A stretch of DNA of 32,389 nt, from the IMG/VR virus record IMGVR_UViG_3300021964_000279, positions 1 through 32,389 of that record; one strand, written 5' to 3'. This document shows positions 36 through 26,219 of this stretch, in pieces. The position numbers and the translations under genes are program-made. Each line of letters opens with the position of its first letter. Position 1 is the stretch's first letter. This stretch comes from a virus. The notes below the pieces were generated by a model. It was not told the DNA's origin and searched no databases. It saw only the letters and a program-made list of their open reading frames with translations.

Positions 36-1565
36 ATGACATTGCTTGATGCTCTATCTGCATCTTCCGCCGCAATTCCCGCAGCGGCCCCGTTCCCCGC
101 TGTTCCCAAAGTAAATCTAGATATGCCAGCCTTCGACTGGCAAGACAAGGCCATAGACCATATTCTTACTAATGGCTACGGTTTGATTGCATATGATATG
201 GGTACCGGCAAGTCTATTGTCGGCGTCGGCGTGGCTGCAAGTGCTGCGAAGCACTTCCCCTTACCTTCCCTGGTGGTGTGCCCTCCGACTCTGATCCCTA
301 CTTGGCTACACGAGTTCAAAAGGTTTCACAGTTCAACGACCGTGGGCGTACTACGAGGTAAGACCCCACATGCAATACCTAACACCGATGTTCTTATCAT
401 TGGCAACTCTGTTGTACAGCATTGGGCACCGTTACTCACGGGTTCGATTAATTGCTTAGTAGTAGACGAGTCTCACAACATGAAGAACAGAGGAGCGAAA
501 CGCAGTAAGGCCGTTGCAGACATTGCCAACGGTATGCCTCATAACAGTATTAAATGCCTGCTTACAGGTACACCCTTACCTAACGGTAAGCACATTGAAC
601 TGGTCGGTCAACTGAACATCCTAGGTCAACAGGCGTGGGACAAACTTGGTGGGTACGGTAACTTCTGGGGAACTTACTGGCCTAAGTCTGCTGGAAATGG
701 CTGGGGCGGGGGCGGTAACGCTAATCACGACCTACTCCACGAACGTAGCCGTGCCTTCACACTTCGGTGTAGGCGTGAGGATGTAATCGAAGACCTACCT
801 ATGAAGGGGCGTAACCTAGTTCGCCTACCTATTAGCGGTACCCGTCTGGACTCTTACATGAAAGCACAGACAGACTTGTACTCCTACATCCGTGATCTCC
901 CGATCAGTGATGATGATAAGCGCCGACGTTTATCGGGGGCTATGCGAGGGCGTGCCATAGTGCTTATGAACGTATTACGCCGACTATCCGGTGAGGCGAA
1001 AGTGCCTTTGATTGCCGATCGTGTTCGAGACCTCCTCAACCCGAGCAACAACCCAGCAGTTGAGTTGCCGGATGGAACAATGGCTGATCCGGGGGTGCTC
1101 ATATTCGCAGAGCACAGGAACGTTATGGATGAGTTAGAACTCAAGTTGTTGCGATATAACCCGGTTACCATAAACGGTCAAACCCCCGCTGGTGACAGGC
1201 AAGACATGATAAACGACTTCATCTCTGGTCGAGCGAGAGTCATGATTGCACACCCTAAGTCTGCTGGCGTTGGACTCACACTGCATGGTAGTGGTCGTAA
1301 CAGCCACGTAATTATCGCTGAGCAACCGTGGTCGCCCAGCGACTTAGTGCAAGCCGAGAACCGCCTACACCGAATGGGGCAGACTCACCCAGTCACGGTG
1401 GAAATTATGGTATCTGACATGGAATACGCGACAAGTATTGACGAGCGCATGGCAAATGCGCTACACAATAAGCACATCAGTGCCTCATTCTTTCTGGATG
1501 GGGAGGCAGAAGAGTTGCTAGATGTGGCTGGAGAAGTGTTCGACTCCTATAAGGACGAAGCCTGA
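36..1565 (+). CDS. SNF2-type DEAD/H helicase-like ATPase (first of two)
   Basis: This 509-residue protein has the ordered motifs of a superfamily 2 SNF2/Rad54-type ATPase. Walker A is MGTGKS at about 55-60, motif II is DESH at 144-147, motif III is LTGTP near 176-180, and motif VI is QAENRLHRMGQ at about 439-449. SNF2 proteins use ATP to translocate on duplex DNA; phage members are usually assigned to replication or recombination. The first 30 residues are Ala/Pro-rich and probably unstructured. The start has AGGAG 8 bases upstream (ATAGGAGTACCTAATG). It begins the plus-strand gene group. A second, different SNF2 protein lies at 19737-21284 on the other strand. The family call is firm; the role in the phage is inferred. 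Confidence 0.93.
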   Translation: MTLLDALSASSAAIPAAAPFPAVPKVNLDMPAFDWQDKAIDHILTNGYGLIAYDMGTGKSIVGVGVAASAAKHFPLPSLVVCPPTLIPTWLHEFKRFHSSTTVGVLRGKTPHAIPNTDVLIIGNSVVQHWAPLLTGSINCLVVDESHNMKNRGAKRSKAVADIANGMPHNSIKCLLTGTPLPNGKHIELVGQLNILGQQAWDKLGGYGNFWGTYWPKSAGNGWGGGGNANHDLLHERSRAFTLRCRREDVIEDLPMKGRNLVRLPISGTRLDSYMKAQTDLYSYIRDLPISDDDKRRRLSGAMRGRAIVLMNVLRRLSGEAKVPLIADRVRDLLNPSNNPAVELPDGTMADPGVLIFAEHRNVMDELELKLLRYNPVTINGQTPAGDRQDMINDFISGRARVMIAHPKSAGVGLTLHGSGRNSHVIIAEQPWSPSDLVQAENRLHRMGQTHPVTVEIMVSDMEYATSIDERMANALHNKHISASFFLDGEAEELLDVAGEVFDSYKDEA

Positions 1566-4116: not shown

Positions 4117-5553
4117 TTATTCCTCATCTACCAAGTCGGCGTTAATAATTAGATCATCAACATCAGACGCTTCTAACGGTTGAGGTAATTCATTGGCTTT
4201 ATCTGCTGCTTTCTGACCAAAGATTCTAGATAAAACGCCGGAACTTCCTCTCGCTTCAACCTGCACGCGGACTAGGTCACGGGTATCCTCAATATCCTTA
4301 AACTCTTTAACCAGTTTGAATAGCCTATCCATCTCGGCTGATACCGCTGGGTCCATACCTTGGCCCTCTAGTTCTTCAGCAAATCTGGCAAAAAGAACTC
4401 TCGACGTCTGCATCTCCAGCATTGCCGTGAGGACGGCTTGCAACTGCTGTTTGGTATGTATACGGACAGGGATGCGATACCCACATTCTGAATGTTCCTT
4501 GAACGCGGGGCAGCGGGAGGCGAGATAGCAACTATCGCAACTACGTATCCCACTACCCTCATGAGTGATGACATCTACCTCAGTGTCAGTAGTTTCAACT
4601 ACTTCTTCTCCATCCGGGGTAGTGAAAGAGGGGTTAGTTACCACCTTTTCAAAGCCAATAACCGGTAGCAATTGCTGTTCACTTTCGTGCCGGGTCATGG
4701 GGGTGTCAGTAGCAATAGCAGGATGGTTAGAAACCGGTTTTGGGCTAGTTACTGTTTCGGGGGGTATAGTTGCTATACCCCCCATATCTGGGGTTTGGAA
4801 CTCGGCTTCATCATCGTCTGAAACGGGGTGGTAGACCCCAGATCCGACGGACTGGTTAGCCCACGCCAACCAAGACTTAACCGCTAGTTTGGCTACTTCA
4901 GACACGTCGTCTTGTTCAATAGCCTCGTAATCGATACCTAATCTAATGATATCTGAGCGGTGCTTCTTTCTTGCCGTAACCTTCTTCTGAGCAGGGTATC
5001 TCCTTAGCCCATGCCCATCCCAAATCTGAGTCTCTCCATAGCGAACTACGCTAGTCCAAGAGGATACTAATACGGCGTCCCAATCAGCGCTTTCTATATG
5101 GTCTACCTTGCTAGTAATACCATATAGTTTGGCTCCCCATCTTTGCTGTAACTGCCTAATACGCGGCAAAGTTTTGGTGTTAATAGCCCTATCGCTGACT
5201 GCGGCCCTTCCGTATTTCTGACAAAGGTAAGCCAGACGTTCTACGTCATGCTCGTCATTCCACAGAGGAATGTACTTCTCCCCCAGCCAATCCCCGTTGT
5301 AGTCGTGCCTACCAATGACTCCGGTAATGCTGTCCGCGTGCTCTCGCACGAACGAATCAAACTTCTCAATATCTTCATCCCCATCTGACGTGTAGATATA
5401 CACATCAGCCCCTTTGAAAAGATGGTTTAAATCGACCTCTTTTGTCTTGGGGATATTGTACTGGGTGAGGTTTAAGGCGATATCAGAGACACCGTTAGCC
5501 ACAAGGATATTGCGGAACGTACCCTTCTCGCCGCCGGAGAGGATAACCTTCAT
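4117..5553 (-). CDS. Uncharacterised phage protein with C-terminal Cys cluster, 478 aa
   Basis: I chose the ATG at 5553, which is preceded by GGAGGGAG and overlaps the stop of the upstream gene (TAATG). The N-terminal 230 residues look like a compact alpha/beta domain. Residues from about 230 to 330 are a Pro/Thr/Glu-rich linker. After it comes a CX2CX5CX8C cluster at roughly 342-360, then a long helical region rich in Glu, Arg and Leu that may form a coiled coil. The Cys spacing could bind zinc or an iron-sulfur cluster. I recall similar Cys-plus-helix proteins in actinophages but no proven function. A perfect 11-bp hairpin lies in the linker-coding region (4759-4783). Confidence 0.8.
   Translation of the reverse strand: MKVILSGGEKGTFRNILVANGVSDIALNLTQYNIPKTKEVDLNHLFKGADVYIYTSDGDEDIEKFDSFVREHADSITGVIGRHDYNGDWLGEKYIPLWNDEHDVERLAYLCQKYGRAAVSDRAINTKTLPRIRQLQQRWGAKLYGITSKVDHIESADWDAVLVSSWTSVVRYGETQIWDGHGLRRYPAQKKVTARKKHRSDIIRLGIDYEAIEQDDVSEVAKLAVKSWLAWANQSVGSGVYHPVSDDDEAEFQTPDMGGIATIPPETVTSPKPVSNHPAIATDTPMTRHESEQQLLPVIGFEKVVTNPSFTTPDGEEVVETTDTEVDVITHEGSGIRSCDSCYLASRCPAFKEHSECGYRIPVRIHTKQQLQAVLTAMLEMQTSRVLFARFAEELEGQGMDPAVSAEMDRLFKLVKEFKDIEDTRDLVRVQVEARGSSGVLSRIFGQKAADKANELPQPLEASDVDDLIINADLVDEE
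4759..4783 (-). repeat. Perfect 11-bp inverted repeat inside a coding gene
   Basis: GGGGGGTATAG and CTATACCCCCC pair perfectly with a 3-base loop. The repeat lies in the part of the 478-aa gene that codes for the low-complexity linker, where protein constraint is weak. No T run follows on the minus strand (CGAAACAG), so a simple terminator is unlikely. It may slow translation or transcription, stabilise mRNA, or be a protein-binding site. Confidence 0.6.
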
Positions 5554-6026
5554 TAGTGCTCCCTCCAAGTTTTCTCAGACTTTAGAACTGCTTGCCGGTC
5601 GATCTCCTGTACCAGATCTCCCCAACCGCGCATCTGCTTAGCGTTACTCCACTCCTGCCTAACTACGTATGGTTGGCATACCAATAAAGAGGGGATACCT
5701 GCCCGCATCATGTGCTCGACAGTTGGGGGGTCTGTGTCCAAATACATAGAATGCCCACCGGCGGCAGCGAGGAGGATTTGAATCTTCTCTGACTTCAGAA
5801 CCGGGTCGTTGGTGTCCAGTACGTCGTACATAGCCGCTTTTACCCCATTGATCTTGAGCCATACCTCAAACAGATCAGTTCTATACTCTTCGTTAACAAC
5901 TACTGCCATGCGGCCAATCGACGATTCGTGCAGACTCTTCCACAAGTACATACCTTCTGGGTCGGGTACTCGTGAACTGATCTCATCGTGGGGGCGGGCC
6001 AGCACGTCGAAGTTGAATACGATCAT
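5553..6026 (-). CDS. Possible HAD-like protein, 157 aa
   Basis: The ATG at 6026 overlaps the stop of the upstream gene (ATGA). The frame is open further upstream, but that sequence codes for the membrane protein in another frame. The N-terminus (MIVFNFDV) looks like the first strand of a HAD phosphatase-like fold. Near residues 112-130 there is LDTDPPTVEHMMRAGIPSLLV, similar to the acidic loop and following strand of HAD proteins. The classical DxD nucleophile pair is not clear because only one Asp is present in the first motif. A distant HAD-like fold without proven activity is my best reading. The gene at 23534-23986 has a similar overall pattern. Confidence 0.65.
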   Translation of the reverse strand: MIVFNFDVLARPHDEISSRVPDPEGMYLWKSLHESSIGRMAVVVNEEYRTDLFEVWLKINGVKAAMYDVLDTNDPVLKSEKIQILLAAAGGHSMYLDTDPPTVEHMMRAGIPSLLVCQPYVVRQEWSNAKQMRGWGDLVQEIDRQAVLKSEKTWREH

Positions 6027-15804: not shown

Positions 15805-17895
15805 TCAACCTTTCGCTTCTGCCCAAGATCGGGCATGGTGTGCCTCTACCTCTAATGCAACACCTTCGATAACTCTGCCATTTCCCATTGCTTTTTCTAA
15901 GTCCCTCTCCCATCGTGTGACATCCTGAGAGGGGACGCTTATCACGATCTCGTCGTGAACTTGCACTAACATCTTACACTCTGGGAAAGGCAAAACGTTG
16001 TACACCTTAATCATTGCTTCTTTGCAAATCTCTGACGCTGTACCCTGCACTACTGCGTTAATAGCCTGACGCTCAGATCTAGCACGAGAAGCAAAATCGT
16101 CAGAACCGAGGTCGGGTACACGCCTGCGACGCCCCTTCATTGTCTCTACATACCCCTGAGATCGGGCTTTACGGATAACCTTGTTCTTCCACTCAGTCAA
16201 TCCAGAGTACCCCGCGTTGTAGTTGTCTACGACAGTACGAGCCTCATCAAGAGATAACTGACCACCGGTAGCATCAACGAGACGCTTAGGACCACCACCA
16301 TATCCCATGAGAAAGTTCGGGACTTTTCCGTAGATGTTTCTCTCTTCACCGGTGATCTCCTCTGGGGGCTTGCCCAGAATAACACTGGCAGTACCGGCGT
16401 GTACGTCGATATTCTCACTAAAAATGTGTAGTAGAGCAGAGTCTTGAGAGTACATAGCCATAATACGCATCTCAATCTGAGAGTAGTCAGCGACTATCAG
16501 ACTGTTCTCAGGCTCTGCTACGAATAGGCTACGAACCCGTCCGTCACGTGGGATGTTCTGTAGGTTGGGGTCGCTGGCAGACAGACGACCAGTTGCAGTC
16601 CTGTGAAGATGAAACTGTGGATGCAGCCGGTCTCTGTGTAGCAAAGGAATCAGACCGTCAACGTAGGTTGACTTCATCTTCTTTAACTCTGCATGGTTCA
16701 TCAGCAGGTCTACAACCGGGTGCTTACCCTGTAGCGACTTCAACGAGTCATCATCGACGCTAGGGTTGCCTTTAGCCGTGACTTTCTTTGGCTTGAGACC
16801 TAGCCCGCCCTCACGCTTTTTGCCGAACAGGAACTGGACTTTATGAGAGTTACTGTCGGGGTTGAAGCCTACGGGGGCGTATTGAGAGATATCAACCAGA
16901 TTAAGATTGATATTGAGGTCTAACTCTTTACCGAGTTTAGTCATCTCGCGCTTGTTAACCCTGACTCCGTTCATCTCCATCTGGGCTAGGACTGGCAACA
17001 CGTCCAACTCCAGATACAGAGCGTCCATCATGGTTGAGTGTTGAATCTTACGAAACAATCGTTTGTAGGCTAACCACGCCCAACGAACGTCGTAGTGGAC
17101 GTACCGGCAGGCTTTGCTGAACGGTTCCGTGGTCAGCGTCTTACCGATCTTCCCGTCACGATGGTACGGGTCAAACTTGAACACCGTGTCCAAAATGGTT
17201 ACTAAACGGTAGTTAAGTAGGTTCTCATTGACTAGGTGCATGAGGATCTGGGTGTCTATGTACCTACCCTTAGGTAAATCCCCACCGTAATACTTAGCGA
17301 CGGACTTAGCATCGAACTTGATGTTCTGGTTGATCTTGACAATGTCCTCATCCATAAACAACGGTTCCAAAGCGGTGAACACCTGTTCTTGGGTCAACTG
17401 CTCGGGGGCGTCTGTGAACGTAGCCGGTATGAAGTACTTAGACCTTGCCATCGACTCCTTGCCAGATGACAGAACCGCACGGTATCCGGGCGGAGGGACA
17501 GTTGAGCCGTCCCCTCTCTCCTCTGGAACCAGAACCTCTCCGTTGGGGTGCCCCATTGGTATCGCCCAAGAGTTGCCACGAGTGCCTATCCCTATCCAGA
17601 ACACATCATTCCGAAAGGGGTCAAGAGCAACCCTACCTCGCCACTTATCCTCAATGGCCTGACGTGACCGCTGAACGGTTGTGGGGTGGGTGACTTTGAG
17701 CGAAGCCTCTTTCTCAGCCCACTCACGCTCCACCAAGTCCATAACATCGGCGTGCCGTTCAATGTTTCCACGAGTCTCTACGTCAAATGTGAACTGACGT
17801 TCGCTCTTGACAATATCGACTACCGACAATAACTCTTCCATGGTAGTGACGGCGGGGGCACCATACCCCCGCCGCCACGCTGTGCCGTCAGCCAT
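15805..17895 (-). CDS. polA: Family A DNA polymerase with 3'-5' exonuclease domain
   Basis: The 696-residue protein contains a 3'-5' exonuclease domain (FDVET at 37-41, NIKFDAK at 191-197, YDVRWAW at about 268-274) and a family A polymerase domain. Motif A is ADYSQIEMR at 469-477 and motif C is QVHDE at 645-649. The O-helix reads ERNIYGKVPNFLMGYGG, with K524, F528 and Y532 at the positions of K758, F762 and Y766 of E. coli Pol I. The Arg is one residue too far from the Lys compared with the usual R-x3-K spacing. The 5'-3' exonuclease domain is absent, as in most phage polymerases. It follows the ssDNA-binding protein gene by 3 bases. It is the probable replicative polymerase. Confidence 0.95.
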   Translation of the reverse strand: MADGTAWRRGYGAPAVTTMEELLSVVDIVKSERQFTFDVETRGNIERHADVMDLVEREWAEKEASLKVTHPTTVQRSRQAIEDKWRGRVALDPFRNDVFWIGIGTRGNSWAIPMGHPNGEVLVPEERGDGSTVPPPGYRAVLSSGKESMARSKYFIPATFTDAPEQLTQEQVFTALEPLFMDEDIVKINQNIKFDAKSVAKYYGGDLPKGRYIDTQILMHLVNENLLNYRLVTILDTVFKFDPYHRDGKIGKTLTTEPFSKACRYVHYDVRWAWLAYKRLFRKIQHSTMMDALYLELDVLPVLAQMEMNGVRVNKREMTKLGKELDLNINLNLVDISQYAPVGFNPDSNSHKVQFLFGKKREGGLGLKPKKVTAKGNPSVDDDSLKSLQGKHPVVDLLMNHAELKKMKSTYVDGLIPLLHRDRLHPQFHLHRTATGRLSASDPNLQNIPRDGRVRSLFVAEPENSLIVADYSQIEMRIMAMYSQDSALLHIFSENIDVHAGTASVILGKPPEEITGEERNIYGKVPNFLMGYGGGPKRLVDATGGQLSLDEARTVVDNYNAGYSGLTEWKNKVIRKARSQGYVETMKGRRRRVPDLGSDDFASRARSERQAINAVVQGTASEICKEAMIKVYNVLPFPECKMLVQVHDEIVISVPSQDVTRWERDLEKAMGNGRVIEGVALEVEAHHARSWAEAKG

Positions 17896-19736: not shown

Positions 19737-21284
19737 CTATACGTTTGACTCTCTCAAAAACTGAGAGAGTGTGTCCATATTTAATTCCATACTTCCGTCG
19801 TTGTCGTGGTGCTTACCGTCAATAAAAGCCTCGTTAACAGACCTTTTAACTTGCAGCATCTCGTACTGACGCTCTTCGATACTACCCTGCATGACGAACG
19901 TTGCAATAGTAACGTGAGGAAACTCAGACGAAAGCCTGATGATTCTTGCCTCTCGTTGTTCTAACTTTCCGCTACTCCATGGAAGGTCGTAACTTATCAA
20001 GTAGTTGGCTATCGGGAGGTCAACCCCGTAACCACCAGCGTCTGAAGAAAGAAATAACCTACAACTGGGGTCTTCGGTAAACCGTTGTTTAGCGGCATCT
20101 CTTTCCTCAGCACTCATTCCCCCCATAAACAGTACGCTGTCGGTCAGCCCTTCGGTCGCCTGCTTTATGAGACGCAAGTTCTTCTTAAAGAAGGAGAACA
20201 AAACTACCTTGTTGTCATCGCTCTCGTCAAGTACCTGTCGTATGTATTCGACACAAGCATCCAGTTTGGGGGCTGCATTGACGCCCTCTAGCCGTCCTTG
20301 TCGCACGATATCATGGGCATACTCACTACCGTGGGGGGAATTCTTATCACCGTATTCCCGTGCCGACTCGGCAATCAAGTCCGGGTTGTCGCATAGCATA
20401 CGTAAAACGGTAAGCCTAGACATGATCTGCCCTTGAGCATCGTCTCCGCCGGAGCCGTTGTAGTGTGCCCACAAGTTAAATGAACCACGAGAGTTCGACA
20501 TAGCGTCACTAATCTTTGATAGTAGATCGTGGGATATGTGCTTGTATAGAGCAGCGCCACGAGTATCAAAGGGGACGGGTATAGTTTGATGAATTATGTC
20601 AGGCAACTGATCTTTAATATCGTCCCTAGTTTTACGAACCATACACTCTTGCATTACCTTGTGCATTTTGTCTAAATTACGATATCTAGTGGGTTTACCC
20701 CAGTGATCTCTGACTATGAAAGTCCTATCAAATGTCTTAAAATCACCTAAAACATCTTTGTCAACGAACTCCATAATGCTAAATAGTTCTTCAGGACGAT
20801 TCTCAATAGGCTGTCCCGTGAGAGCAAACCGGTAAGCAACAGTCCTGCCGACCCTTTTAATGAGCCTAGAACGCTTAGCAGACCTGTTCTTTATCATGGT
20901 GCTCTCGTCCACGACCACTGCTTGTATGGTACCTAACTGACCTATATCGTTTGCCAAAGTCTCAGAGTTAACCACAACATAACGACTGTGCTTAGAGAAC
21001 CTCCATTGTGCCGTACGCCTGTTCTTAGGACCATCGATTACCGTGCATTTAGCGTCTGTGAACTTAGAGATCTCTCTAGCCCACTGGTACTTTAGGGAAG
21101 CGGGGACGATTACTAAACAACGTTCAATCTCCCCTTCTTCAAACAGTTGCTCCACAGCCCCCAATGTTGTGGGGGTTTTTCCAGCACCCATCACCATGCC
21201 TAAAAGCATCTGGCCACGGTCGGTCATCCGCTCTACTGCCTCTTGCTGGTAGGGCCATAATTGTCCTTTAAACACGGATAACAC
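19737..21284 (-). CDS. SNF2-type DEAD/H helicase-like ATPase (second)
   Basis: The 515-residue protein has SNF2 family motifs: PYQQ at 11-14 (Q-like motif), Walker A MGAGKT at 32-37, motif II DEST at 126-129, LTGQP near 154, and in the last quarter the VDLPIANYLISYDLPWSSGKLEQREARIIRL region, which replaces the canonical QAxxRxHRxGQ motif VI with a weaker version. It is not closely similar to the SNF2 gene at 36-1565. Starts at GTG 21284 or GTG 21275 are both possible; the gene overlaps the primase gene by up to 17 bases. A perfect 9-bp hairpin lies at its 3' end. The role is probably replication fork or recombination remodelling. Confidence 0.9.
   Translation of the reverse strand: MLSVFKGQLWPYQQEAVERMTDRGQMLLGMVMGAGKTPTTLGAVEQLFEEGEIERCLVIVPASLKYQWAREISKFTDAKCTVIDGPKNRRTAQWRFSKHSRYVVVNSETLANDIGQLGTIQAVVVDESTMIKNRSAKRSRLIKRVGRTVAYRFALTGQPIENRPEELFSIMEFVDKDVLGDFKTFDRTFIVRDHWGKPTRYRNLDKMHKVMQECMVRKTRDDIKDQLPDIIHQTIPVPFDTRGAALYKHISHDLLSKISDAMSNSRGSFNLWAHYNGSGGDDAQGQIMSRLTVLRMLCDNPDLIAESAREYGDKNSPHGSEYAHDIVRQGRLEGVNAAPKLDACVEYIRQVLDESDDNKVVLFSFFKKNLRLIKQATEGLTDSVLFMGGMSAEERDAAKQRFTEDPSCRLFLSSDAGGYGVDLPIANYLISYDLPWSSGKLEQREARIIRLSSEFPHVTIATFVMQGSIEERQYEMLQVKRSVNEAFIDGKHHDNDGSMELNMDTLSQFLRESNV
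19748..19770 (-). repeat. Perfect 9-bp hairpin at the 3' end of the SNF2 gene
   Basis: ACTCTCTCA (19748-19756) pairs perfectly with TGAGAGAGT (19762-19770) around a 5-base loop. It codes for part of the last residues of the SNF2 protein, just before the stop codon. On the minus strand no T run follows (CAAACG), so it is not a typical terminator. It may stabilise or punctuate the mRNA. Confidence 0.45.
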
Positions 21285-22173: not shown

Positions 22174-22309
22174 TTTCCTTGATTTCCTCACGAAGTTTCC
22201 TGATGTACTGAGCCGCTTCTCTCAATAGAGATATTTCTGGGGTACTCATAGATGCGTACTCCAAACGCTCCACGATGTCCATGTCAGTCGAATGATGGGT
22301 CAATTTCAT
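22148..22309 (-). CDS. Hypothetical helical protein, 53 aa
   Basis: The ATG at 22309 is preceded by GGAGG 5 bases away. The product is helical: DIVERLEYASMSTPEISLLREAAQYIRKLREEI, a pattern I know from many small phage proteins, usually named hypothetical. It overlaps the end of the helicase gene by 26 bases and the primase start by 26 bases. The strong ribosome-binding site supports it as a gene. It may be a small helix-hairpin partner of primase or helicase, but no evidence points to either. Confidence 0.65.
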   Translation of the reverse strand: MKLTHHSTDMDIVERLEYASMSTPEISLLREAAQYIRKLREEIKENESHGRSD

Positions 22310-23534
22310 CAACCTCCGATACTTCCGCAAACTCCATTGTCTGCCAGTCCCATTTTACATGTATTTCAGCGTGGGGGGCGGTACGTGCCTCTACCACGCG
22401 GATGATGGCCTGATCGTCAAGGTCTGGGTTACGCTCTACGCCAAGAACCAAATCAGCATCCTGTACAAACGACGAAGTGTAACCAATAGAGTCTGCGGTG
22501 ATAGCACGTGTACGCTTGTTGTTCAACTTCCACGACAGAACCTGAGACGTGCCCACAACAGGGATGTCGAATCTCTGCGCTAGGCGCTTTACCCCACGAG
22601 TGATGTTGGTCAAAGCCTGCGGCGATCCCTTCGGCTCACCATTCTCATCATCCATCAGATACATACCGTCGATAAACACGGCGTCAGGCTGGTACTCCTG
22701 AATCTTACCGGCAATGGCGCTGATGGTCGTGAGGCTACTACTGTCTTCGGACATCCTAAATGGGTGCATGTTCTTCATCATCCGCATAGACTTTTCCAGA
22801 CGGTCAAACTCTTTCTCAGACATCTGCCCGCTTAAGATACGCTCGTACGGAATCTTGGCGATAAGGGAATAGAAACGAGACCTCTGCTCCGCTACCGACA
22901 TCTCAAAGGAGATAAACAAAGGCTGAAGGCCGTGACGGTGGCAGGCTATAGCCATGATTAACTCGAACAATGACTTACCACGTTTTGGTTCGCCTACCAT
23001 AACAACGAACTGCTGGGGACGTAGACCGTAGGTCACTCTGTCCAACCCAGCGAACCCAGTAGGTATACCACGCAAGGCGTTCGGGTTTTCTTTCATCTCC
23101 CTATACATCTGGAGTTGGTCTTCCCAACCCTCAATAATATTGAAGTCCCGCAAACGAGCCGTGTCGGTACTGGCTGCTTGTAGACCAGTCGAAAGAATAG
23201 CCATGGCATCCTTGACGTTGTCCTTGTCAAGTGGACCCATAGCCGCACTGACCGCATCTATGATCGTGCGGGAGCGATAGGCGTCTAGAAGTTCTTCAAA
23301 CAAACCACTAAACGACTCGCTAGCAGTGTCGACTATCTCAATGTCACCATAAGCAGTGCTGAATGCACGCTCTGTGGGTACAGCGCCGTGCTTGCTGTTA
23401 TACTCGATAATCCATTGGTATACGTTTTGCCAGTCACCAGCAAAGTACACTGTCTTAATACCTGACTTAGACGCCTCACTAAGAGACTGCTCTTCAATTA
23501 TCTTGCTTATTACTAGATGCTCAATTGCTGCCAT
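22284..23534 (-). CDS. DnaB-like replicative DNA helicase
   Basis: The 416-residue protein has a DnaB-type N-terminal helical region and a RecA-like ATPase domain. Walker A is GEPKRGKS at 181-188 and is preceded by the typical GIPTGFAGLDRVTYGLRP segment. The later motifs include AVFIDGMYLM, the Walker B strand, and VPVVGTSQVL, similar to H4. DnaB helicases are hexameric and load at the origin with a DnaC-like factor, which is encoded two genes upstream (23973-24542). Its stop overlaps the next small gene. Confidence 0.92.
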   Translation of the reverse strand: MAAIEHLVISKIIEEQSLSEASKSGIKTVYFAGDWQNVYQWIIEYNSKHGAVPTERAFSTAYGDIEIVDTASESFSGLFEELLDAYRSRTIIDAVSAAMGPLDKDNVKDAMAILSTGLQAASTDTARLRDFNIIEGWEDQLQMYREMKENPNALRGIPTGFAGLDRVTYGLRPQQFVVMVGEPKRGKSLFELIMAIACHRHGLQPLFISFEMSVAEQRSRFYSLIAKIPYERILSGQMSEKEFDRLEKSMRMMKNMHPFRMSEDSSSLTTISAIAGKIQEYQPDAVFIDGMYLMDDENGEPKGSPQALTNITRGVKRLAQRFDIPVVGTSQVLSWKLNNKRTRAITADSIGYTSSFVQDADLVLGVERNPDLDDQAIIRVVEARTAPHAEIHVKWDWQTMEFAEVSEVDEIDPSFD

Positions 23535-23986
23535 TAGATCCCAAACGTCCCATCAGGTTTTGTAACGGTTGCACGAAAACCAAGCACTGCCGCGTCGTCT
23601 TCGTACGGAGTAAACAGGGTGTGAACGTCACGGTTGTACTTAAAGTCGTCACGCAGCGTGTCAAAGTCATAGTAAGCGTATACGCTCACACTGATGCCTT
23701 TACGAGCAAGCCAATGCTCTACCTGCTCTACTAATTCTTCCTCGTAGTATGTGTACACCTCTACGCCCAAGTCCAACTGATTGACCATGTGATAAACAGA
23801 CTTGAGAGGCAACTCGTTTACACGCCAGCGCCTCACTTCCTGCTTAATCCACTCATCATCTGTCAACTCTTTATCACGACGAAACAACTTACGCTTCTGC
23901 GGTTCTTCCTGACGAGTTATAAGTAGATCCTCAAACCAGCAGGCGATGTGCTTATGCGTGGTGGGGGCGATGTCACCTTTTTCCAC
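23534..23986 (-). CDS. Possible HAD-like protein, 150 aa
   Basis: The GTG at 23986, 5 bases after GAGGA, is a better start than the TTG at 24004. Its N-terminal region is basic. In residues 70-150 it has VYHMVNQLDLGVEVYTYYEEELVEQVEHWLARKGISV, then DFDTLRDD and a final LFTPYEDDAAVLGFRATV, which resembles the end of a HAD-type fold. The gene at 5553-6026 has a similar order of strand, helix, WL motif and final strand. I cannot identify a catalytic Asp pair with confidence. It sits between loader and helicase genes. Confidence 0.65.
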   Translation of the reverse strand: MEKGDIAPTTHKHIACWFEDLLITRQEEPQKRKLFRRDKELTDDEWIKQEVRRWRVNELPLKSVYHMVNQLDLGVEVYTYYEEELVEQVEHWLARKGISVSVYAYYDFDTLRDDFKYNRDVHTLFTPYEDDAAVLGFRATVTKPDGTFGI

Positions 23987-24542
23987 GAGCGTCCTCAAAG
24001 TCAAAATCGGCTAACGGATTCGCTAAGCGTGATCCATACCGGCTCTTAATGTCTTGGATAGACAAACGAGAGGTAATGATAGTCGCCTTTTGTTTGTCAT
24101 ACCGTTTACGGATGAGGCTACCCAATTCGTGGCTGGCAAACTCCGTCAACCTCTCTTCTCCTAAACCATCAATGACCACCACATCGAATACTCCTTTGAC
24201 GTACTTCACAATGTGAGGGCTTGAGTACATTTCTGGGAGTAAGCCGTCATTATCAAACGAATCCTTAATCATCTCTATGTAGTCGTCCGCCTCCAACCAA
24301 CGACCCGATACGCTGTGCTCCTTGACGGCCTCCGTCAAGGTGCGTGCCGCAATCAGTGATTTACCGGAGCCGGAGGGGCCTTGTATAAACAAGTTTCCAT
24401 CACCTCGGAGAGCCACCGCTGGCCAGTCCTCCATCGCTTCATGGATGCGCTTAGGAACGTGTAGATGAAACAACCGCTCCCCTACGGAACGGTTACGCCA
24501 CCAGTTTTCGCTTTTCCAGTCTAATGGTGTGCTGTAGTTCAC
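23973..24542 (-). CDS. DnaC-like helicase-loader ATPase
   Basis: This 189-residue AAA+ ATPase has Walker A GPSGSGKS at 55-62 and Walker B VVVIDGLGEE at about 119-128. The following KATIITSRL strand, and the length without an extra domain, resemble DnaC/IstB-type proteins, which load the DnaB helicase. Its place upstream of the helicase and primase agrees. The GTG start overlaps the preceding stop (GTGA) and has AAGGAG before it. A transposition ATP-binding protein of IstB type is the main alternative, but no transposase is present. Confidence 0.85.
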   Translation of the reverse strand: MNYSTPLDWKSENWWRNRSVGERLFHLHVPKRIHEAMEDWPAVALRGDGNLFIQGPSGSGKSLIAARTLTEAVKEHSVSGRWLEADDYIEMIKDSFDNDGLLPEMYSSPHIVKYVKGVFDVVVIDGLGEERLTEFASHELGSLIRKRYDKQKATIITSRLSIQDIKSRYGSRLANPLADFDFEDARGKR

Positions 24543-25258
24543 CAGCGCTCCTTATTGGTTACGGACTTTATAGAGAGGACTGCCTGCTTAACCGTGCTGT
24601 GTTTCTTCTTCATGCTTTTAGGGGATTTAACCGGGGAGGCCAACTCTTGGGGAAGAGTGATCATAGACAAAGTATCACGCAGTTGTCCAGAACCGCTCTC
24701 GTTATCTCCAAGATTCCACGAGATTAGATCTTCTAAAGCGGACAACCTTTCCGACAGGTACGGCTCTGGGTCGTCTATGCGAATAATGTCAACAACGAGT
24801 TCTGGGTAGCGGAGAACAGATTCATCGCACACGAGTAAAACCGCCCTGCGAACCTCCCTAGTGTCCATAAAAGGCCCGTTGTTAGGCATACCATCTAGCA
24901 ACCACTGGGCTACTACATCGGCTAGAAGAACAGACGACTCAGCGGACAGTTCTTCTTGTACCTCTTTTTTGCAGAACATCAAAGCGGGGTACTCCGAAGA
25001 GGAATACGGTGATGAGTAAAACCTATCCACCAACGACTTTATTTCGTCTGTTGTGAATCCTTTTGAAAGAAGACGAGAGAAATTACTAGAAAGAATTGCT
25101 TTGTCTTCTTGGCCAAACCTCTGGCTCATACGCATAGAACGATGGTACCCAAAGTACTTAACCAATTCATAGACCTTGTTACTTGCTCTCTTTTTGGTGC
25201 CCGTACGCTCTTCCCAACCGTTGTCGGGGGCATCTGGATCAGCGCCAAAGGTAGGCAT
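24539..25258 (-). CDS. Probable replication-associated protein, 239 aa
   Basis: The ATG at 25258 has AAAGGG 7 bases before it. The TTG at 25402 would add 48 residues, but that stretch holds the promoter-like site and the inverted repeat, so I do not use it. The product is helical with an N-terminal basic region. It has a long hydrophobic-charged region (residues about 50-190), then a basic tail (PKSMKKKHSTVKQ). By position (directly before the DnaC-like loader) it might be an initiator or DnaD-like factor, but no clear motif shows this. Function is not assigned. Confidence 0.72.
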   Translation of the reverse strand: MPTFGADPDAPDNGWEERTGTKKRASNKVYELVKYFGYHRSMRMSQRFGQEDKAILSSNFSRLLSKGFTTDEIKSLVDRFYSSPYSSSEYPALMFCKKEVQEELSAESSVLLADVVAQWLLDGMPNNGPFMDTREVRRAVLLVCDESVLRYPELVVDIIRIDDPEPYLSERLSALEDLISWNLGDNESGSGQLRDTLSMITLPQELASPVKSPKSMKKKHSTVKQAVLSIKSVTNKERW

Positions 25259-25280
25259 AACCAAACCCTTTCTCCATGGC

Positions 25281-25331
25281 GGAGCGGACGCCTTATGACC
25301 AGCCCAACCACGAGAGGTAGGCGTCCGCTCC
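25281..25331 (-). repeat. 13-bp perfect inverted repeat in the leader of the replication block
   Basis: GGAGCGGACGCCT (25281-25293) and AGGCGTCCGCTCC (25319-25331) are exact inverted copies with a 25-base loop. The repeat lies between the promoter-like site at 25373-25402 and the ATG at 25258. In the RNA it would form a stable stem-loop ending 22 bases before that ATG. It could regulate translation or transcription of the replication genes, or be an origin or protein-binding site. No T run follows, so it is not an ordinary terminator. Confidence 0.7.
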
Positions 25332-25372
25332 TTACCATGAAAGGAGACACGTATGGAACCCGTGCCAATACG

Positions 25373-25402
25373 AATGTACCACGGATCGTACGACCAAGTC
25401 AA
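25373..25402 (-). promoter_or_regulatory. Promoter-like site for the replication block
   Basis: On the minus strand TTGACT (25397-25402) and TACATT (25373-25378) are separated by 18 bases. They match the consensus at 5 and 4 of 6 positions. Transcription would start near 25366 and give a leader of about 108 nt before the ATG at 25258. The spacing is the same as in the site at 26249-26278. It lies in the largest gap of the right half of the window. Confidence 0.6.
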
Positions 25403-25418
25403 CGATCCTCAAATAAAA

Positions 25419-26219
25419 TCAGAATTGAATACGGGAAAGTGCCCGCAACATCCACAGTCGCGCCTGCTCCAGCGAGGCTTTAGCCATAGACGATTCAAAG
25501 TCCTTACAGTTGTCAGCGTACTCAGTGAAGTCGTGGTACAAACGGACAAAGTCATAATCGTTAGGGGCTGGCGGTGGGGGCGTTGGGTCGTCCTTGGGTA
25601 TCGTAGAAGGAGTCTCTGCCGGGGCTTCCTCTGCTCCGAACAATTCTTCGATGATACCGGACTTGGTCTTAGACGTGAGACCTAACTTTTCTCCGTAGCG
25701 CTTTACAGCGGGAACGGCCATACCCTCCAACTGCTCTCGGGTGAACCGACTGTTGTCGTCTTCCTCGGTATGCTCCTCTTCCGTGAGTGCCGCAGGCTCG
25801 GGGGTATCAGGGTGGTACTCCACCACGATGGGGGCTAATCCGTTGCTAAGTTCTCGCACACGAACACTCTCGTTACTGTCAAAGATGGTGCCCAGCAATT
25901 CTTCGTCAGCGTCGTTCCACAGGATCAACACTTCGTTGTCAATTGATTTGACCAAGGATGACTCAGTGTCGCGTACTTTGACAACGTTGACAGTGTCTAT
26001 CTGACGGAGATCTGGGTGGACATTCTGTCCATCAGAGTACAACAGGTTGGTGGTGTACTCGTTGTCAACTAGGTACTCCAACACGGCGTCCATTGCCCCA
26101 TTCATGGACTTAGGCCAAGCAACGGACACCTCGTCTCCAGACGACAAGGCATCGGCAAGGGATTCCTTTACGGCATCAGCGGGGCAATCCCCTGTTCCAA
26201 TAATGACTACATGACTCAT
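25419..26219 (-). CDS. Hypothetical protein with SAP-like motif, 266 aa
   Basis: The first 130 residues look like an alpha/beta domain starting with a Rossmann-like strand (VVIIGTG). Residues about 159-195 (FTREQLEGMAVPAVKRYGEKLGLTSKTKSGIIEELFG) resemble a SAP or Rho_N-type helix-extended loop-helix, which usually binds nucleic acid. A Pro-rich linker (residues 203-220, with PTPPPP) and a C-terminal helix follow. The start has GGAGACGCTATG. I recall such proteins in actinophages, without function. It has its own promoter-like site and dyad (26228-26278) upstream. Confidence 0.75.
   Translation of the reverse strand: MSHVVIIGTGDCPADAVKESLADALSSGDEVSVAWPKSMNGAMDAVLEYLVDNEYTTNLLYSDGQNVHPDLRQIDTVNVVKVRDTESSLVKSIDNEVLILWNDADEELLGTIFDSNESVRVRELSNGLAPIVVEYHPDTPEPAALTEEEHTEEDDNSRFTREQLEGMAVPAVKRYGEKLGLTSKTKSGIIEELFGAEEAPAETPSTIPKDDPTPPPPAPNDYDFVRLYHDFTEYADNCKDFESSMAKASLEQARLWMLRALSRIQF

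Follow-up and report, generated by a model that had tools for sequence, protein, structure and literature searches.

What is the structured stretch that separates a promoter from the replication genes of this phage? The window (the whole stretch of DNA analysed, 32,389 nucleotides) is the 32.4-kb record of a myovirus-like phage, in which baseplate genes, P0001 and a replication block follow one another on the same minus strand. The block comprises P0002, a DnaC-like loader, a DnaB-like helicase, a primase, an SNF2 helicase, an SSB-like protein and a DNA polymerase (Table 1). The leader, about 108 nt counted from a predicted start, lies on the minus strand between the promoter and the P0002 ATG at 25258, which is the correct start codon, given that relatives conserve the protein from residue 1. 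A first-pass annotation had described this segment as a structured leader of the replication block that could be an RNA switch or protein-controlled hairpin, or part of a replication origin. The position of the segment and covariation in relatives supported a structured leader RNA for the replication block; the results gave no support to the switch or protein-controlled hairpin and left a part in an origin undemonstrated in this phage.

By homology, P0002 was neither a polymerase nor an SSB, and a Foldseek search of the PDB with a P0002 model (pLDDT 78) gave no match. Isolated phages searched with the nucleotide sequence and with P0002 also gave no match. At the protein level, the nearest isolated relatives were BRock-type Streptomyces phages (about 30–40% identity), which have baseplate, DnaC, DnaB, primase and SNF2 helicase genes in common with the window and whose genes are tightly packed at the leader position. 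Elsewhere, the window carries a phage-borne queuine tRNA-ribosyltransferase-like gene (4117–5568, minus strand; PHROG 887, E 5e-35) and, within this one genome, two helicases that both fall in the PHROG 62 family (36–1565, plus strand; 19737–21284, minus strand).

Table 1. Features of the leader region in the window, and initiator loci in distant relatives (L-numbered contigs, own coordinates)
Feature	Position	Strand	Basis or remark
P0001, conserved gene upstream of the leader, function not assigned	25419–26219	−	after baseplate genes
Sigma70-like promoter (−35 TTGACT 25402–25397; 18-nt spacer; −10 TACATT 25378–25373)	25373–25402	−	sequence match
Predicted transcription start, base 1 of P1 stem	25366	−	−10 end + 7
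P1, 5′-terminal hairpin GGCACG-9 nt-CGTGTC	25346–25366	−	folding; arm comparison in relatives
CU-rich linker TCCTTTCATGGTAA	25332–25345	−	overlaps outer 5′ arm of P3
P3, tall hairpin (13-bp core 25331–25319/25293–25281; outer 5 bp)	25275–25339	−	folding; arm swap
Shine-Dalgarno region GAGAAAGGG	25266–25274	−	sequence
P0002, first replication gene, 239 aa, ATG start	24539–25258	−	homology to C-terminal domain of O-like initiators of distant relatives
DnaC-like helicase loader, second gene of the block	23973–24542	−	
DnaB-like replicative helicase	22284–23534	−	
O-like initiators with iteron-like repeats inside the gene	L020 7636–8946; L113 9428–10726; also L078, L082, L089		
O-like initiators with iteron-like repeats, the O-like half and the P0002-type domain being separate genes	L087 615–677; L088 8394–8456; L090 3855–3917		

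The TTGACT-N18-TACATT site named in the first-pass annotation was present on the minus strand (25402–25373); a site this good turns up in about 2% of 60-nt windows drawn at random from these genomes. It agrees with the Streptomyces promoter consensus BTGACN/TANNNT (PMC8780764), which is a hint at a host and not an identification. The 5′ end predicted earlier, 25366, coincided with the first base of P1, a hairpin that had been overlooked, in which GGCACG (25366–25361) faces CGTGTC (25351–25346); the pair closing its loop is G-C in the window and C-G in relatives (GGCACC/GGTGTC). In seven of the nine leaders tested (window, L093, L097, L099, L096, L101 and L102), the −10 box ended 4–6 nt before the P1 stem, suggesting that base 1 of the P1 stem should also be the first base of the mRNA. 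The start, predicted rather than mapped, fell on that base in the window and near P1 in most leaders, and at the usual start distance most leaders would have 0–2 unpaired 5′ bases. P1 lay 16 nt from the −10 box in L100, and no promoter was recognisable in L110; the other leaders had a promoter-like site. A palindrome, GGATCGT...ACGATCC, surrounds the −35 box (window 25383–25408, minus strand), and −35 palindromes were also seen in L093 (TGACAG-GG-CTGTCA) and L096 (ACTTTGT-CTA-ACAAAGT); these are possible operators of changing sequence.

The perfect 13-bp inverted repeat reported at 25281–25293 and 25319–25331 had arms that were 100% complementary and 25 nt apart. Its claimed rarity also held: among perfect repeats whose arms are separated by fewer than 100 bases, it was the longest in the 32.4 kb, and stems of at least 13 pairs (G-U allowed) occurred in 4 of 587 overlapping 110-nt windows. 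The stem was found where it had been placed but had been given too short a length, since an outer CATGG/CCATG helix (25339–25335/25279–25275) extends P3. In the folding check that had been proposed, the leader RNA folded at −59.6 kcal/mol (z −4.3); leaders folded at about −50 to −68 kcal/mol compared with a mean of −37.8 at control gene starts. No U-tract followed P3 in any lineage, the ten bases 3′ of the stem containing one to three T. Two other structures in the window were observed at gene starts. On the plus strand, another hairpin precedes a Shine-Dalgarno sequence (2678–2730): it is perfect, GC-rich and 11 bp long (2678–2704), stands between a stop near 2657 and the Shine-Dalgarno sequence and ATG (2730) of a plus-strand gene, and is possibly a terminator with a weak U-tract. 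On the minus strand, a very stable palindrome (about 17842–17878) lies where the DNA polymerase ORF begins (ATG 17895), and a comparable stem of different sequence was present at the polymerase start in L008, L010, L012, L014, L106 and L107, some of them without an obvious upstream ATG.

Relatives were gathered by searches with the helicase, P0002, DnaC and P0001, and their P0002 proteins were about 40–55% identical; two further contigs represented the same phage as the window and were excluded as independent evidence. Ten distinct leaders from about seven to eight lineages (window, L093, L096, L097, L099, L100, L101, L102, L013 and L110) contained P1, the CU-rich linker, P3, the Shine-Dalgarno sequence and the ATG in one order. 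Because MAFFT could not align the leader stems, covariation was assessed by swapping arms between leaders instead of with a covariance model. The results showed that P3 arms paired far better with their own partners than with swapped ones (−32.3 vs −18.4 kcal/mol; 1 of 20,000 permutations as good). For P1, whose arms were picked by eye, the values were −6.4 and −3.1 kcal/mol (6 of 20,000 permutations as good), and in single sequences this hairpin was modestly better than shuffles. Covariation in relatives, the test named beforehand, was thereby found: P3 stems differ nearly completely between lineages yet still pair, through compensatory changes. Among the leaders no sequence was conserved inside the hairpins and no loop was conserved, loop length and sequence both differing between lineages. 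The whole cassette was missing from L095, L106, L022, L107, L109, L111 and L026, all of which have P0002, and the P0002 N-termini of L095 (without the cassette) and L097 (with it) were almost the same. Given that close relatives are without any leader, the cassette has been gained or lost as a unit. A P0001 scan for further lineages yielded no new complete leader, and other matches to GTGTCTC(C/T)T were without the architecture.

Relatives keep the linker in the form UC(U)CCUC/UCUUUC...AUGGU. In L093, UCUCUUUCAAC might be taken for a boxA (nut/rrn), an idea abandoned since UCUCCU replaces it in most leaders. A conserved in-frame protein through 25259–25402, the refuting case named beforehand, was excluded by stops in six of the ten leaders (L093, L096, L099, L100, L101 and L110) and by unrelated residues in the others, and with it an in-frame N-terminal extension of P0002. 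A conserved plus-strand gene starting at AAAGGAGACACGTATG near 25341–25355 was also rejected, neither its ATG nor its frame being kept in relatives.

The T4 proteins gp32 and gp43 repress their own translation by binding to leaders, and the leader here might similarly be a translational operator or RNA switch, either with the anti-SD-like linker pairing with the Shine-Dalgarno sequence or with a phage protein such as P0002 binding the leader and repressing its own translation. In most leaders AGGAG finds its complement in the UCUCCU-type linker, and strong pairing with the Shine-Dalgarno sequence was predicted in L096. However, exchanging partners between leaders did not weaken the linker/Shine-Dalgarno pairing (own −7.4, swapped −7.9 kcal/mol; 72% of permutations as good), so that no coevolution was detected, and accessibility of the Shine-Dalgarno sequence was ordinary (12th–73rd percentile of 104 control genes). 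The swap test and the accessibility control together rule out sequestration as a common mechanism; no off state with a conserved pairing partner was found. Autogenous leader hairpins do exist in phage replication genes (PMC3014915), but the loops and stems here are without sequence conservation, unlike the T4/RB69 operator, and no Rfam covariance model scored at or above its gathering threshold against the leader. Operator or switch, the reading is unlikely. It is very unlikely that the leader is a terminator or attenuator lacking a U-tract, or that it acts on RNA polymerase in put-like antitermination. Many Streptomyces transcript ends are without U-rich motifs (PMC8780764), but P3 stands downstream of its own promoter and directly before the Shine-Dalgarno sequence, and the GC-rich hairpin with U-tract that marks an intrinsic terminator or attenuator was found in no lineage. 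For antitermination, the two promoter-proximal hairpins resemble the layout of HK022 put RNA, yet they have no conserved sequence.

The segment might instead act as DNA, for example as an extruded hairpin that loads helicase or primase, kept from an ancestral O-like origin. In seven relatives (L020, L050, L078, L082, L083, L089 and L113), the P0002 domain forms the C-terminal part of a fused frame of 416–436 aa whose N-terminal half is winged-helix-like. The N-terminal half of L020, and a separate gene of L088, matched 'replication initiation O-like' families; the L113 fused protein matched no PHROG. Between the two halves, the coding sequence holds three or four iteron-like repeats with a spacing of mostly 22–24 bp (in L020, L050 and group C, which includes L078, L082 and L113), an arrangement that favours an origin. 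In group C, a 14-bp hairpin lies 3′ of the iterons, before the P0002 domain; both of its variable pairs (A-U/U-A and A-U/G-C) are changed on both sides and none is broken, the changes altering encoded residues too, as read from the sequence. L015 and L027 have a tall stem at the same place, and the differences between them in one arm are matched by differences in the other. Three clades thus have a tall hairpin immediately in front of the P0002 domain, with different sequences, by descent or convergence. The iterons and tall hairpins at this junction in other clades make a DNA-level role a live rival. Against it, the window, in a set of partial contigs, has no detectable winged-helix half and at this place neither iterons nor a tandem array of the kind that a lambda-O-type origin carries in or next to an O-like initiator gene; GC skew at 25.3 kb flattens only, without a clear turn; the close relative L095 is among several without the cassette; and the promoter and P1 have the placement expected of a transcript. 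An RNA leader is favoured by the promoter geometry and by the lack of the cassette in close relatives, and the DNA-level role is quite unlikely. It is a long shot that the lineage split a lambda-O-type initiator, losing the DNA-binding half and the iterons and keeping P0002 alone, with the junction hairpin doubling as a leader and as an origin, or site of helicase loading, that needs no iterons.

Two observations on the fused frames stand apart from this question. The in-gene iterons of these uncultivated phages are arranged in lambda style, with the O-like half fused to or followed by a P0002-type domain. The 14-bp hairpin of L078, L082, L113 and L115–L123 has a UAAA or UAAC loop, lies about 30–75 nt ahead of the P0002 domain's internal ATG and is followed by GGGC-UUCG-CCC and an internal Shine-Dalgarno sequence and ATG inside the fused initiator ORF, a possible start of a short product. 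Loops of identical sequence have been reported from the gene 43 operators of RB49 and T4 (PMC3014915), which may be a coincidence.

The best explanation, which we hold tentatively and at a little under an even chance, is that the element is a promoter with a structured 5′ untranslated leader that gives the mRNA a sealed, insulated end, and is not a switch or terminator. Transcription starting on the first base of P1 would place the beginning of the message inside a hairpin, with 0–2 unpaired bases; the CU-rich linker would follow, then the tall, GC-rich P3 directly upstream of a normally open Shine-Dalgarno sequence. P1 and P3 would most likely protect the message against decay beginning at the 5′ end and keep the ribosome-binding site insulated from the sequence before it; expression of the replication genes would then be even, whether the RNA came from their own promoter or read in from the upstream operon. 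A precedent for such protection is that RppH and RNase E require single-stranded 5′ ends and that 5′ structure stabilises mRNA (PMC3997798). A structure kept without its sequence fits protection and insulation better than an operator specific for a ligand or protein. The site of transcription start, protection by the hairpins and any effect on timing are inferred, and conservation of the linker (UCUCCU...AUGGU) is not explained by stabilisation.

This is an undescribed structured leader of uncultivated phages, in which almost all stem bases have been exchanged and the hairpins have nonetheless been kept, and it offers a clean test case for how phages tune or protect replication messages. Its place at a junction that holds an O-like half and iterons in distant relatives bears on how origins and initiators are split, moved and lost.

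Several known systems are similar in part. HK022 put RNA also has two hairpins close to the promoter in a phage leader, but the leader here is without sequence resemblance to it and antitermination is not indicated. The lambda origin is situated midway along gene O (PMC7466680), and the distant relatives resemble it in having an O-like half and iteron-like repeats at the junction, then a P0002-type domain; unlike lambda, the window phage has no winged-helix half and no iterons there. Like the T4/RB69 gene 43 and gene 32 operators, the leader is a structured element upstream of the Shine-Dalgarno sequence of a phage replication gene. Conserved loop bases and a known binding protein characterise the gene 43 operator, whereas stem and loop here vary completely and the loops differ between lineages, so that the likeness to the T4 gene 43 operator (PMC3014915) appears to be one of position only. 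Stabilising 5′ stem-loops of the ompA/papA type, in which the stem begins within about 0–3 nt of the 5′ end, differ in that the leader has two hairpins and a conserved CU-rich linker and belongs to a phage replication operon; the likeness is in a hairpin of free sequence, which here is predicted to begin at the first bases of the transcript, and in a Shine-Dalgarno sequence that is left open.
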